A stretch of DNA of 64,000 nucleotides from Desulfovibrionaceae bacterium (GTDB lineage: Bacteria; Desulfobacterota; Desulfovibrionia; Desulfovibrionales; Desulfovibrionaceae). This document shows positions 20,221 to 26,069 of this stretch, piece by piece. The notes beneath the pieces were generated by a model, which had not been told where the DNA came from, made no database searches, and worked only from the letters and a program-made list of their open reading frames with translations. Made by a program: the position numbers and the translations under genes. The stretch spans positions 62,001 to 126,000 of the forward strand of contig JAFLSV010000001.1 of NCBI GenBank assembly GCA_022510785.1, given 5' to 3'. Position 1 is the stretch's first letter. Each line of letters opens with the position of its first letter.

Positions 20221-23016
20221 ATGAATGATGAACACAAGGTTTCCTTCTCTTCTTCCCGGCGAACCCGCAAGGCACAAGGAACAGGCGGGGTCATTTCCAT
20301 ACCGGACAAGGATCCTGGGGACAGCCCTGTGGCGCTGCCGGATTCTTCCTTTCCTGAAAATCAGGCCGAAGGCGGCGCCTTGTTTGATGATGCTATTCCC
20401 CTGCCGCCTGTTCCCTCGCCTGAGTATCCGGACAGCCAGGATGAGGAAAAAGACTCTGAGGAGACGGAAGAGCCCGCTGATGACTCCGACGCCAACGATA
20501 GACCTGACGATCAGGATACTCCGAAGCGGCCCCGGCGGCGTGTCCGCCGTCCGTCCGCGGTCACGGTCAGTCTGGAGCGGCCCAGCGGCATGGACAGCAC
20601 CCAGCAGATTCTTGCTGAAATTCCGTCCACGCTGCCCGTTGTGCCCCTCCGGGACAATGTGGTGTTTAATTCCATGATCGTGCCGCTGTACGAAAGCCGT
20701 GAAAGATCCATTCTGGCGGTGGACACGGCGCTGGGCAGCAATCGCTTTCTGCTTTTGTGCACCCAGAAGGATGCTTCGGTGGATGAGCCTAGCCCCGATG
20801 ATCTGTTTGCCGTAGGGTCGGTGGTGATGATTCTGCGGATGCTCAAATTGCCAGACGGCCAGGTGAAAATTCTGGTTCAGGGACTGGCGCGGGCACAGAT
20901 CAGGAGTTTTGTGGCCACCGAACCGTTCATGGTGGCGCGTGCGGAGATTTTGCGGGAAAAAGAGGCCGGGCCGCACGATGTGCGACAGGAGGCTCTGATT
21001 CGTTCCGCCCGCGAGCAGAGCGAAAAAATTTTAAATCTCCGGGGTATTCCTACCGGCGATATCATGGGCGTTTTGATGGCGGTGGACGACCCGGGCCGTC
21101 TGGCGGATCTTATCGCGGCCAACATGCGCCTGCGCGTGAGCGAGGCCCAGGCCCTGCTGGAATGCCTGGATCCCATGGAACGCCTGCGCATGGTCAACGA
21201 CCATCTTTCACGCGAGGTGGAAGTGGCCGACATGCAGGCCCGTATCCAGAATATGGCTCGCGAGGGCATGGACAAGGCACAGAAGGATTATTTCCTGCGT
21301 GAGCAGATGAAGGCTATCCGCCGGGAACTGGGTGACAACGCCGATCAGGAAGAGGAACTGGAAGAACTGGGCAAGGCCCTTGACAAGGCCGGTTTGCCGC
21401 CCGAAGCCCGCAAAGAGGCGGACAAGCAGCTGCGCCGTCTGGCCGCCATGCACGGCGATTCAGCCGAAGCCTCGGTTATCCGCACCTATCTGGACTGGCT
21501 GGCGGATCTGCCCTGGAAAAAAGTGTCGCGCGATCGTCTGGATATTGTGAAGGCCAAAGAAATTCTGGATGAGGATCACTTTGGTCTTGCCCGGATCAAA
21601 GACCGCATTCTTGAATACCTCAGCGTGCGCAAGCTCAATCCCGACTCCAAGGGCCCCATCCTGTGTTTTGTCGGCCCTCCGGGCGTGGGCAAAACTTCGC
21701 TGGGGCGCTCCATCGCGCGGGCCATGGGGCGCAAATTTCAGCGTATATCGCTGGGCGGCATGAGAGATGAAGCGGAAATACGCGGCCATCGGCGCACCTA
21801 TATCGGGTCAATGCCCGGTCGTGTCATCCAGGCCGTCAAACAGGCGGGAACGCGCAACCCGGTTCTTGTTCTGGACGAAATAGACAAACTGGGCAGCGAC
21901 TTTCGGGGCGATCCGTCTTCGGCCCTGCTGGAGGTGCTGGATCCCGAACAAAATTCCCATTTCAGCGACCACTACCTGAATCTGGAATTTGATCTGTCCA
22001 GAGTTCTCTTTCTGTGCACGGCCAATCAGCTGGATACCATCCCCTCAGCCCTGCTGGATCGCCTGGAGGTCATCTCACTGCCCGGCTACACGGAACAGGA
22101 AAAGCTGACCATTGCCAAAAAATATCTCGTGCCAAGGCAGCGGGGAGACAACGGACTCAAGGAGGCCGATATCACGGTGCGGGATGCGGCCATTGCCCGC
22201 ATCATACGCGAATACACACGGGAAGCGGGCTTGCGCAACCTGGAACGCCAGTTGGGTACGGTGTGCCGTAAATTGGCCCGCCGCAAGGCAGAGGGCCAGA
22301 AAGGCCCCTTTGTGGTGGCGGCCGCTCAGGTGCCCAAACTGCTGGGTGCGCCGCGCTATCTGGACGAAGAACGTGAAAATACGCTTATGCCGGGTGTGGC
22401 TCTGGGACTGGCCTGGACCCAGGCCGGCGGTGAAGTGCTGCATGTGGAAGTGAGCACCATGAAAGGTACAGGGCACCTGACGCTCACAGGCCAGTTGGGT
22501 GATGTCATGAAGGAAAGCGCTCAGGCTGCGTTAAGCTATGCCCGTTCCCACGCCGAGCATCTGGGTATTGAACCGGACTTTGCGGATAAACTGGATATCC
22601 ATGTCCATGTTCCCGCCGGAGCCACGCCCAAAGACGGCCCATCCGCCGGAGTAACCATGGTGACGGCCCTGGTTTCTGCGCTGACCGGCCGGCCTGCTCG
22701 CACCGATACCTGCATGACCGGAGAAATCACGCTGCGCGGCCGGGTTTTGCCCGTGGGAGGCATCAAGGAAAAAATTCTGGGCGCTGTGGCGCGTGGTCTG
22801 CAACATGCCGTTATTCCCAGCCAGAATGTCAAGGATCTGGAAGAGATCCCCGCCGATTTGCGCCGCCGGATTGACATCAGGTCTGTAGACAGTATTGATG
22901 AACTGCTGCCCCTGGTTCTGACCGACAAGGCAAAGGCCGCGCACAGGCAGTCCACGCCTGAGGCCAGAAAAGCCTGGCCCGCCGCAAAACAGAAAAAGAA
23001 AGCCGCCGCGCGTTAA
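20221..23016 (+). CDS. lon: ATP-dependent protease Lon with N-terminal extension
   Basis: AAA+ serine protease degrading misfolded and regulatory proteins in the cytoplasm. The 931-aa protein has a Lon substrate-binding N-domain starting near residue 140 (LPVVPLRDNVVFNSMIVPL), Walker A GPPGVGKTSLG, Walker B LVLDEIDKLG, and a proteolytic domain with the catalytic Ser in PKDGPSAGVTM and Lys in GGIKEKILGA. About 125 residues before the N-domain are acidic, Pro/Asp/Glu-rich and end in a basic KRPRRRVRRPS patch; this extension is not part of normal LonA. The C-terminus has a Lys/Ala-rich tail. Confidence 0.96.
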   Translation: MNDEHKVSFSSSRRTRKAQGTGGVISIPDKDPGDSPVALPDSSFPENQAEGGALFDDAIPLPPVPSPEYPDSQDEEKDSEETEEPADDSDANDRPDDQDTPKRPRRRVRRPSAVTVSLERPSGMDSTQQILAEIPSTLPVVPLRDNVVFNSMIVPLYESRERSILAVDTALGSNRFLLLCTQKDASVDEPSPDDLFAVGSVVMILRMLKLPDGQVKILVQGLARAQIRSFVATEPFMVARAEILREKEAGPHDVRQEALIRSAREQSEKILNLRGIPTGDIMGVLMAVDDPGRLADLIAANMRLRVSEAQALLECLDPMERLRMVNDHLSREVEVADMQARIQNMAREGMDKAQKDYFLREQMKAIRRELGDNADQEEELEELGKALDKAGLPPEARKEADKQLRRLAAMHGDSAEASVIRTYLDWLADLPWKKVSRDRLDIVKAKEILDEDHFGLARIKDRILEYLSVRKLNPDSKGPILCFVGPPGVGKTSLGRSIARAMGRKFQRISLGGMRDEAEIRGHRRTYIGSMPGRVIQAVKQAGTRNPVLVLDEIDKLGSDFRGDPSSALLEVLDPEQNSHFSDHYLNLEFDLSRVLFLCTANQLDTIPSALLDRLEVISLPGYTEQEKLTIAKKYLVPRQRGDNGLKEADITVRDAAIARIIREYTREAGLRNLERQLGTVCRKLARRKAEGQKGPFVVAAAQVPKLLGAPRYLDEERENTLMPGVALGLAWTQAGGEVLHVEVSTMKGTGHLTLTGQLGDVMKESAQAALSYARSHAEHLGIEPDFADKLDIHVHVPAGATPKDGPSAGVTMVTALVSALTGRPARTDTCMTGEITLRGRVLPVGGIKEKILGAVARGLQHAVIPSQNVKDLEEIPADLRRRIDIRSVDSIDELLPLVLTDKAKAAHRQSTPEARKAWPAAKQKKKAAAR

Positions 23017-23080: not shown

Positions 23081-23155
23081 AGCTTCCTTTTTCCCGGAAT
23101 CCCTGCTAGCTTCCATGACGTGGCTCCTCCTATCGGGTTGGGTTCGTTTGTCACC
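23081..23155. repeat. Dispersed repeat, copy A
   Basis: About 62-75 bp starting AGCTTCCTTTTTCCCGGAAT and ending with ATCGGGTTGGG. A diverged second copy lies at 35574-35650 in the same orientation. The copy abuts the 3' end of the low-GC glycosyltransferase gene. On the minus strand it contains AGGAGG followed by an ATG (23116) opening an 18-codon frame, but this frame is not kept in copy B. Confidence 0.5.
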
Positions 23156-23329
23156 TAGTCCCAAAATAAAATTTTGTCACGGCGCACCATAAACAGTTCT
23201 GTTTCTTTAAGTGAACAGGATATAGCGTGAGATTTTTCTTTATAATGCCTTCGTTTTTTTCCAAGAAGGATATAAGACAATATTAAACATCTTAAATAAT
23301 TAATTTTTCGTTTTTTATATCCAGAAACA

Positions 23330-24228
23330 TCAAAATATTGCTGGCATATCTGCTTTAATTTATCTGCATAAGGAGATTTTGCTGCATATTTCCAAAAATA
23401 GATATCATACTCTCTGCCTTTAAGGATACCATTTTTTTTCCATGGTTTCATATTAGATCCACCATAATGAATGATGGCAGGATGCTTTAAAGCCTCTAAG
23501 CCGCCATCTACAAGAAAGTAAAATTTTTTGCTAGCTCTCATAAAATTATATTTAATTGGTAAAAATCGTACTTTTTTATAAAAAATGCTATTAAGAACGT
23601 CTTGATCATCATACATGATACCTCCTTTCTGTTCAATCTGTTCTAATAAAAATGGAAAAGAGAAGTCATGACGAATGAGATCAAGATTAAGGAGTAATAC
23701 TCCAGAATTAAAATATTCACTTGCATCCTTCATTAGCAAAGTATCTTGAATAAATTTCTTAAAATTTTCAGTCACAGAGCGAATAAAAAAATGAACTATG
23801 ACAGCTGCAGCATAGTAATTTGTTACATCTGTATGATATAAATTTGCTATATCTTCTAAAATAATAGTATCGCAATCAAGGTATAAGACTTTATGGTATT
23901 TTTTTAACAATTCTGGCAAGAAAAGTCTGTAGTATGCCGCAAATGATAGCCAATTTACATTTTTTATTTTACTCATATCCCACATTTTAAGAAATGGCTC
24001 AATATTATATACACGAATAGATATGTTCTTTTTATTTATAATCATTGATTGAAACATATAATTATAATTTTCAATAAATTTATTTGCTACAATAATAATA
24101 TCATATTTTTCTGAATTTGAAGTGTTATCTATTATTGATTGAATTGAAGCGAAAATGGGTATAATGATATTTTCATCACCACAAAAAACAATAGAGATAC
24201 CGTTATCAAAAGCGGGATAAATTTCAGT
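23330..24228 (-). repeat. GT8 module, unit 2 of tandem duplication
   Basis: About 0.9 kb encoding the second GT8 domain, from TEIYPAFDNGISIVFCGDEN to the end of YADKLKQICQQYFDV. It is alignable along its length, at protein and partly DNA level, to unit 1 at 24229-25129. Boundaries are approximate. Confidence 0.75.
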
Positions 24229-25129
24229 ATATGCGTGACATATTTGCCTTAATTCTTCTGTGTAGGGACATTTTGCAGCGAATCTCCAAAAATAACTATC
24301 ATAGTTATTGTCAGTATTAAGTCCATCTTTTTCCCAGGGTTTGCTTTGTCCAGTATAGTGAATAATAGCTGGATTGTCTAAAGCATCAGAGCCATCCTTT
24401 ACAAGGAAATAAAAATCCTTGAGCTTCCATGAGAAATTATATTTTGGCGGCAAGAATGATACTTTTTGATAAAAAATGCTATTAAGAACATCTTGAGCAT
24501 CATACATAATTCCTCCTTTCTGTTTTGCCTGCTCCAGAAGAAACGGAAAAGAGAAGTTATGGCGGATGAGGTCAAGGTTAAGAAGTAATACTCCAGCATT
24601 GAAATATTCACTTACATCTTTCATTTGCAGGTTCTGCTGTATATGGCGTATAAAATCTTCATTTATGTCCTTCATTGTAAAATAATTTTTGACGGCTGCA
24701 ACGTAATAATTTGTTATATCTGTATGATATAAATTTGTTATGTCATCAAGAATAATGGTATCGCAATCCAAATATAACACTTTATGATATTCTTTCAGTA
24801 ATTCTGGTATAAAAATTTTGTAATATACAGCATGCGATAGACTTTTTGTGATTTTTATATTATTTATATCATATTGTTTGATAAACGGTTCAATATCATA
24901 TACGCGAATTGATATATTATTTTTGTTTATAGCAACTGATTGAAGCATAGAAATATATTTTTTGCAAAAATTATTGGCAATAACAACAATATCATAATTC
25001 TCTCTCTCTCTCTCTCTCTGAAATATTATCAACTATGGATTGAATCGAAGCAACGAGTGGTATGATATAATTTTCATCCGCACAAAAAACAATAGAAACT
25101 GCGTTGTCAGAAACTGGATGGATTTCGGT
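24229..25129 (-). repeat. GT8 module, unit 1 of tandem duplication
   Basis: About 0.9 kb encoding the first GT8 domain, from TEIHPVSDNAVSIVFCADEN to YTEELRQICHAY. It carries the (GA)10 tract, which unit 2 lacks; unit 2 has NTSNSEKYDI at the equivalent place, the same length as unit 1 would have with five GA units. Confidence 0.75.
24999..25018 (-). repeat. (GA)10 dinucleotide microsatellite
   Basis: Ten uninterrupted TC units on the plus strand (GA on the coding strand), flanked by TTTCA upstream and ATTATGAT downstream in the coding sense. It lies 41 codons after the ATG of the GT8 gene. Frame continuity needs 2n-1 divisible by 3, that is n = 5, 8 or 11; n = 10 breaks it. Confidence 0.95.
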
Positions 25130-25189
25130 TGCAGGCAACATGTTATTTCTCCTGTCAGATTCACTAGATGTCAGTAGTCGTTATGTTTT

Positions 25190-26041
25190 TTAATGAGGAA
25201 TACGCCGCAGCAGGAGCAGATAGCCGTTACGCACGGCGATGTAGGGTTCCAGCGAGGCGGAGACCACCTGTTCATAGGGTTTGTAGAGCTTGTCCATATC
25301 ATTGAACCGGAACCCCACTGAACTGGCCAGATTGGTCTGCCAGTTCAGAAAGTAATTGTGGGGAGCGGCGAACAGGTCGCCGACCATGCCCACGCTCTCC
25401 CTCGCGGTGCTGGGCCCCACGAAGGGCCAGACCAGATAGGGGCCTTCGCCCATGCCCCACACAGCCAGCGTATGCCCAAAATTTTCCGTTTCCGGGTGGT
25501 AGGGATAGAGCGGTTTGCTCTGACTGGCCACATCCGCCAGTCCCAAGCTGGTCATGGTATTAATGCAGAAACGGCCGAATTCTACCCCCGCCTGGGTAAA
25601 CTTGCCCTGCAATACGCTGTTAAAAAAACGAACCGGGGCTCCCAGATTGTGGGCAAAATTGGATATGCCGCTCCGCATAGAGGCGGGAAGCACCTTGCTG
25701 TACCCCTCATGAACCGGCTTAATCACCTTCAGCAGCAACACGTCATTAAAGTCGAACCAGAAGCGGTTCCAGGATTCAAAGGGATCAGAGACGGCCACCG
25801 CGGGGCTGTCGTCGTCATAATCGTCCAGGCTGAAGTCATCCCCGGGGATATCCAGGCTGGCCCCTCCCTTGGCGGGGCCTGGGCCGGAGTCCGCATGGCT
25901 TGCCGGTGGAGCAGAAACGTCAGCCGCCGCTGCTTGTTCCATGTGCTGAAGCGCCCGCTCCTTTCCGGCGCCGGCATCGTGCCCGGCACAGGCGCAGAGC
26001 GGTAAGAGAGCGCTTACAACCAGGATGCGTAACGGCATCAT
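25190..26041 (-). CDS. mlaA: Outer-membrane lipoprotein MlaA (VacJ)
   Basis: Outer-membrane component of the Mla system, which removes misplaced phospholipids from the outer leaflet and passes them to MlaC. The precursor has a hydrophobic signal and lipobox LCAC; a Pro/Ala/Asp-rich linker follows before the VacJ domain (SDPFESWNRFWFDFNDV, SNFAHNLGAPVRFFNSVLQG, GMGEGPYLVWPFVGPSTARESVG). ATG 26041 has GAGG upstream and gives a compact signal peptide (283 aa); the ORF-track start at 26068, just after the mlaC stop, is also possible. It is the last gene of the mla operon. Confidence 0.93.
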   Translation of the reverse strand: MMPLRILVVSALLPLCACAGHDAGAGKERALQHMEQAAAADVSAPPASHADSGPGPAKGGASLDIPGDDFSLDDYDDDSPAVAVSDPFESWNRFWFDFNDVLLLKVIKPVHEGYSKVLPASMRSGISNFAHNLGAPVRFFNSVLQGKFTQAGVEFGRFCINTMTSLGLADVASQSKPLYPYHPETENFGHTLAVWGMGEGPYLVWPFVGPSTARESVGMVGDLFAAPHNYFLNWQTNLASSVGFRFNDMDKLYKPYEQVVSASLEPYIAVRNGYLLLLRRIPH

Positions 26042-26069
26042 GACGTGCCGCCTCAATGTGTTACCCATT

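Follow-up and report, generated by a model that had tools for sequence, protein, structure and literature searches.

A two-domain GT8 glycosyltransferase gene with an out-of-frame GA tract, a probable phase-variable locus in a Desulfovibrionaceae bacterium

Organization of the GA-tract gene

The window, i.e., the whole 64-kb stretch of DNA that was analyzed, carries on its minus strand a gene whose start codon, ATG at 25141-25139, was read directly. It lies 7 bases after the Shine-Dalgarno sequence AGGAG (25149..25153, minus strand), which was read directly and was also scored as such. The first 41 codons (25019..25141, minus strand) encode strand 1 and helix 1 of a GT8 domain and lead into the proposed switch, a 21-bp A(GA)10 tract (24999..25019, minus strand). 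Translation of the start frame through this tract at n = 10 ends after residue 49 at a TGA/TAA-type stop (24992..24994, minus strand). The remainder of GT8 domain 1 and the whole of domain 2 are encoded in a second frame by 613 codons and a stop (23155..24996, minus strand), and this frame is free of stops, while the other two frames there have stops at 8.6% of codons. A reading-frame check of the gene revealed no lesion other than the out-of-frame tract. Frame arithmetic for n = 3 to 15 gives full-length proteins only at n = 5, 8, 11, and 14, with 658, 660, 662, and 664 amino acids, respectively; at n = 10, the product has 49 amino acids, and the gene would be ON after the gain of one unit or the loss of two. 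These readings bear out the original prediction, which had described a good ribosome-binding site before the ATG at 25141, 41 codons running into (GA)10 and a quick stop, 600-odd further codons open in another frame, and full-length products at 5, 8, or 11 units, with one added unit turning the gene ON; 14 units can be added to that series.

A(GA)10 is the sole perfect dinucleotide run of at least 6 units in the window, 6 dinucleotide units being the cut-off for a repeat tract used in phasome surveys (PMC6321876). Under a first-order Markov model of the window, runs as long as this tract are expected at a rate of 4e-9 per window and 1e-7 per 2.2 Mb. Its length and its unit, which is no multiple of 3, place it among the SSRs, and it lies inside a coding region, where the number of units decides in which frame an otherwise intact gene is read. 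A TTG codon at 25032, just 5' of the tract, shares the frame of the long open reading frame and has no Shine-Dalgarno sequence. A K-G-G-I-M-Y-D stretch conserved in both GT8 domains (window positions 24510-24530 and 23610-23630) is coded by AAAGGAGGAATTATG and AAAGGAGGTATCATG, which combine a strong Shine-Dalgarno sequence with an in-frame ATG within the domains; from these letters, an internal start during the OFF state is conceivable.

The gene lies 48 bp downstream of mlaA (25190..26068, minus strand), the last gene of the mla cluster, with which it is probably cotranscribed. The convergent neighbor, lon (20221..23016, plus strand), is no part of the switch. A search with Lon matched Desulfovibrio MAGs at 64 to 68% identity, which places the source organism in this group but does not assign it to a species. 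The G+C content of the GT8 gene is 29.7%, compared with 58% for the window, and no match to it was found beside mlaA in 12 genus relatives with mlaA (about 1.5 kb compared; 394 bp in L296). The gene was probably acquired and placed at the end of the mla operon. Searches of genome-contig and viral-contig collections with the GT8 query returned no relatives. Matches in phage records are distant (at most 32% identity), and a phage origin of the gene is therefore unsupported.

The encoded protein and the site of the tract

The predicted protein contains two tandem Glyco_transf_8 (PF01501) matches of 137.7 and 131.8 bits (curated cut-off, 24.3), in agreement with the predicted two-domain GT8 gene. 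Domain 1 (24328..25068, minus strand) is matched when read across the tract, and domain 2 is located at 23431..24192 on the minus strand. The two domains share 63% identity over their main part, both have the D-x-D metal-binding motif as DCDT (DGDT in relatives), and an alignment with relatives shows that the conserved GT8 features are all present in both. Each of the seven best relatives in the genus has a single domain, with 41 to 50% identity to domain 2. A profile built from domain 2 and these seven proteins identified WbbM and LgtC as the closest solved structures, which agrees with the lgtC-like architecture proposed originally.

Exactly five residues separate the end of helix 1 from strand 2 (YDI) in domain 2 and in all seven relatives, SNSEK in domain 2 and SADEC, SDDEC, SAGEY, SSTEN, SPEHR, or SAENN in the single-domain relatives. 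In domain 1, the spacer begins with S and ends with N, with an E-R repeat in between; at n = 5, it would again have five residues (S-E-R-E-N), so that the proposed match in length between the n = 5 form and domain 2 holds and extends to the seven relatives. In an AlphaFold model of domain 2 (mean pLDDT, 74.8), the tract-equivalent residues 40 to 45 form a turn between a helix (residues 23 to 39) and a strand (residues 46 to 52). From this model, the turn that joins helix 1 to strand 2 would plausibly tolerate extra Arg-Glu pairs. The turn position and the five-residue spacer of the relatives suggest that the GA tract probably grew out of a short charged turn. No GA tract was found in orthologs of the GT8 gene among the relatives examined. 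The frameshift of the OFF state cuts strand 1 and helix 1 of domain 1 off from the remainder of the protein.

A second GA tract in a type ISP restriction-modification gene

In a pattern search of the source genome (2.2 Mb, 99.5% complete), (GA)7 was found just twice, in the window and at G000:C13:25150-25192. The latter is an A(GA)21 tract that splits an otherwise intact type ISP restriction-modification gene (L023:9240-14106, on C13 of the source genome). Over its two frames, this gene encodes, in order, Mrr_cat_2, ResIII, Helicase_C, ISP_coupler, Eco57I, and Type_ISP_C domains, i.e., the single chain with nuclease, helicase, coupler, methyltransferase, and ISP specificity domains that defines type ISP enzymes, and a restriction-modification profile with 1646 positions is matched by its two halves at 3-288 and 295-1640. 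The gene is OFF at 21 units, and 19 or 22 units would give 1620 or 1622 residues. It thus shares its frame offset with the GT8 gene, both being OFF in the assembly and both one unit from ON, and at both tracts the flanks are concordant, with the same gene on both sides. The type ISP gene adjoins a gene for an opacity-type outer-membrane protein and lies downstream of flhA and a flagellar-type sigma factor gene. The predominant functions of phase-variable loci are surface structures and restriction-modification systems (PMC11868660), and the GT8 family and the type ISP enzyme represent these two classes. No other single observation speaks as strongly against chance or simple decay as the finding that the only two long GA tracts of the genome lie one in each of these classes, both in genes that are intact otherwise. 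The type ISP gene is most likely governed by the same slippage mechanism as the GT8 gene.

GA tracts across the genus, family, and phylum

The assembled sequences of a collection with one genome per species were searched for further tracts. (GA)7 tracts are present in 9 of 19 genus genomes and (CA)7 tracts in 2 of the 19, with one tract each. (GA)8 tracts with a terminal A occur in 43 of 288 family genomes, representing 13 of 44 genera, and, by the listing of a phylum-wide sample, in 18 of 378 genomes outside the family, where they are mostly single; many tracts per genome are found there mainly in family f82. Genomes of f82 that are rich in long GA tracts include G499, G520, G540, G614, and G649. 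G060, which is assembled as a single contig of 3.70 Mb, carries at least 24 tracts, which measure 28 to 80 bp, many of them without a long reading frame on both sides, and these may be intergenic or promoter tracts.

By Pfam assignment, the genes that bear or adjoin tracts include those for GT2, GT1, and GT92-like glycosyltransferases, FkbM methyltransferases, acyltransferases, type ISP and Eco57I-type methylases, an autotransporter, an outer-membrane efflux protein, DctP binding proteins, sulfatases, GGDEF/EAL proteins, and sigma-54 activators. Where both flanks of a relative's tract belong to one gene, ON and OFF frame states are mixed. A GT2 gene (L138) is OFF, as is an acyltransferase gene (L154) with profile matches of 2-59 before the tract and 67-324 after it. 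At L157, an FkbM gene is ON, with a Shine-Dalgarno sequence and an ATG followed by 38 bp of GA, and adjoins an FkbM gene with 36 bp of GA that is OFF. The region L157:4252-10192 has three adjacent FkbM-methyltransferase genes with GA tracts of 36, 38, and 22 bp in differing frame states, two of the tracts lying directly 3' of a start codon. Several tracts, in L130, L132, L140, L142, and L155, have TC on the sense strand and are found at the start codon or up to about 30 codons downstream of it; they are mostly in exported-protein genes and would encode Leu-Ser repeats in the signal peptide.

Draft assemblies misjoin at long tracts, so the unit numbers and states in drafts are merely indicative. 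The idea that every tract-split draft gene is a switch was rejected: L165, L166, and L167 in G017 join halves of different genes, are probably misassembled, and were excluded from the ON/OFF argument. A related 1.4-kb segment with a frame of about 450 amino acids and no Pfam family precedes the GA tracts of L139, L165, L167, and L258 in three genomes and is followed by different genes (an acyltransferase end, a type ISP end, and an unknown gene). The assemblies may be misjoined at the tracts, or else gene halves have really been exchanged by way of them. Codon-usage scoring was too weak for placing genes around tracts.

Phase variation and alternative explanations

The length and position of the tract, which are far beyond chance, the recurrence of such tracts in typical phase-variable gene classes with mixed frames, and the near absence of (CA)n tracts support the phase-variable reading. 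The GT8 locus is very probably a translational contingency locus that switches by slipped-strand mispairing and is now in the OFF state, as the original prediction had it, the out-of-frame 10-unit tract being its sole lesion. Against this reading stand the OFF state of both tracts in the source genome and the lack of a GA tract in the orthologs of the relatives examined. Slipped-strand mispairing at replication would add or remove GA units at high frequency. After the gain of one unit or the loss of two, the cell would make the GT8 glycosyltransferase with both domains, about 660 residues long and with some additional Arg-Glu dipeptides in a surface turn, whereas it would otherwise make the 49-residue fragment. 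Judging from its family, the enzyme would probably modify a surface glycan by sugar addition, with O-antigen, capsule, or surface protein as candidates; LPS is a putative target, and capsule or protein glycosylation is equally possible. Switching would make the surface of the population mixed with respect to one sugar addition, e.g., against phages or a host, and through the second locus, a single restriction and methylation specificity would likewise vary within the population. The GA-tract mechanism is most likely shared by many relatives in the family. Beyond the single locus, there is a reasonable case that a branch of the Desulfovibrionaceae has a genome-wide set of phase-variable genes (surface-glycan, restriction-modification, exported, and signaling genes) carried almost wholly on (GA/TC)n tracts, despite intact mutS.

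It is unlikely that the GT8 gene is a recent pseudogene, in which a single expansion of the tract by slippage was followed by ongoing decay without selected switching. The gene is OFF now, and this is the only allele in the source genome; in addition, it is low in G+C, probably acquired, and absent from the same place in the genus relatives examined, all of which would fit decay. However, no second lesion has arisen across 613 codons, the intact type ISP gene of the same genome, from a typical switching class, has the same lesion, and ON and OFF states are mixed among the relatives. Moreover, since a 10-unit tract remains unstable, reversion to ON is expected.

The tract is merely 21 bp long, well inside a short read, and is located within a 186-kb contig with both flanks from the same gene. 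An assembly or sequencing error that hides an in-frame tract (e.g., 11 units) and a constitutively ON gene is thus quite improbable, although dinucleotide tracts are error-prone and misjoins at long tracts occur in draft relatives; a miscounted n would still leave a potential switch. We consider it scarcely credible that the full protein is made at n = 10, either through slippage during transcription or translation of the tract or through a start at the TTG (25032), with the tract being no genetic switch. Such slippage, which repeats can induce in polymerases or ribosomes, is known mainly at A/T homopolymers, and the TTG, although in frame and just 5' of the tract, is not preceded by a Shine-Dalgarno sequence and as a start would drop strand 1 and helix 1 of domain 1.

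Comparison with known phase-variable systems

LgtC is a phase-variable GT8 enzyme of Neisseria and Haemophilus, an alpha-1,4-galactosyltransferase that transfers galactose to lactose on lipooligosaccharide, and its gene has an intragenic repeat. The gene described here shares with lgtC the GT8 fold and family (E value of 2e-27 against the LgtC structures 1g9r and 1ga8, a similarity at the family level only) and the arrangement in which an intragenic repeat would control a glycosyltransferase by frameshift. In contrast to the poly-G or tetranucleotide repeat of lgtC, the repeat here is a GA dinucleotide, and the gene encodes two tandem GT8 domains, belongs to a Desulfovibrio-like host, and lies behind mlaA, outside an LOS cluster. 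The best solved relative of the GT8 domains is WbbM (6u4b; E value of 7e-50), a Klebsiella O-antigen enzyme, although the match spans one domain of a 606-residue chain, and we know of no repeat control of WbbM.

The closest precedent for the repeat itself is M.MmyCI of Mycoplasma mycoides subsp. capri, which was shown experimentally to be OFF at (AG)12 and ON at (AG)10 (PMC3498834). It likewise has an AG dinucleotide tract in the coding region and an OFF length that gives an early stop, but it is a type III DNA methyltransferase from an unrelated lineage and not a glycosyltransferase. Cj0031 (cj0031c) of Campylobacter jejuni is a phase-variable type IIG single-chain restriction-modification enzyme (PMC4889913); it is comparable in this respect with the type ISP gene at G000:C13, whose domain arrangement is different. 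Poly-G tracts are dominant in Campylobacter (PMC6321876), and the hif promoter of Haemophilus influenzae contains (TA)n (PMC2651432). In the open-access literature, no report on point concerning phase variation or repeat tracts in Desulfovibrio was found. The mechanism is already known; what is apparently new is its use in this lineage, the dependence on a single dinucleotide, and the proposed GA control of a type ISP enzyme.

In a 2025 review, the apparent restriction of genomes rich in phase-variable genes to pathogens was called a major open question, and database bias was suggested as one reason (PMC11868660). If the reading proposed here is true, the present lineage is a multilocus phase-variable lineage outside the classical pathogens that is based on one dinucleotide, and with many dinucleotide switches in Desulfovibrio-like bacteria, that question could be tested in a lineage of anaerobes. 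Such switches, lying in surface-glycan and restriction genes, would also bear on the phage resistance of these bacteria, and the GT8 locus and its type ISP companion provide two simple, countable candidate switches as a starting point.

Mismatch repair and strand bias

The mutS1 gene is present and intact in the source genome and in the tract-rich genus members, being cut only by a contig end in G001. Loss of mutS was thus rejected as the reason for the persistence of the tracts, which are not simply its outcome. Among 72 tracts from G001, G002, G003, G012, G016, G017, and G060, the flanks show that GA is carried by the C-rich strand (negative GC skew) in 61 cases, with small skews and gene orientation uncontrolled. 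These 61 cases include 22 of the 24 tracts of G060 (sign test, p = 4e-5, gene orientation likewise uncontrolled), and the C-rich, GA-bearing strand is perhaps the lagging strand.
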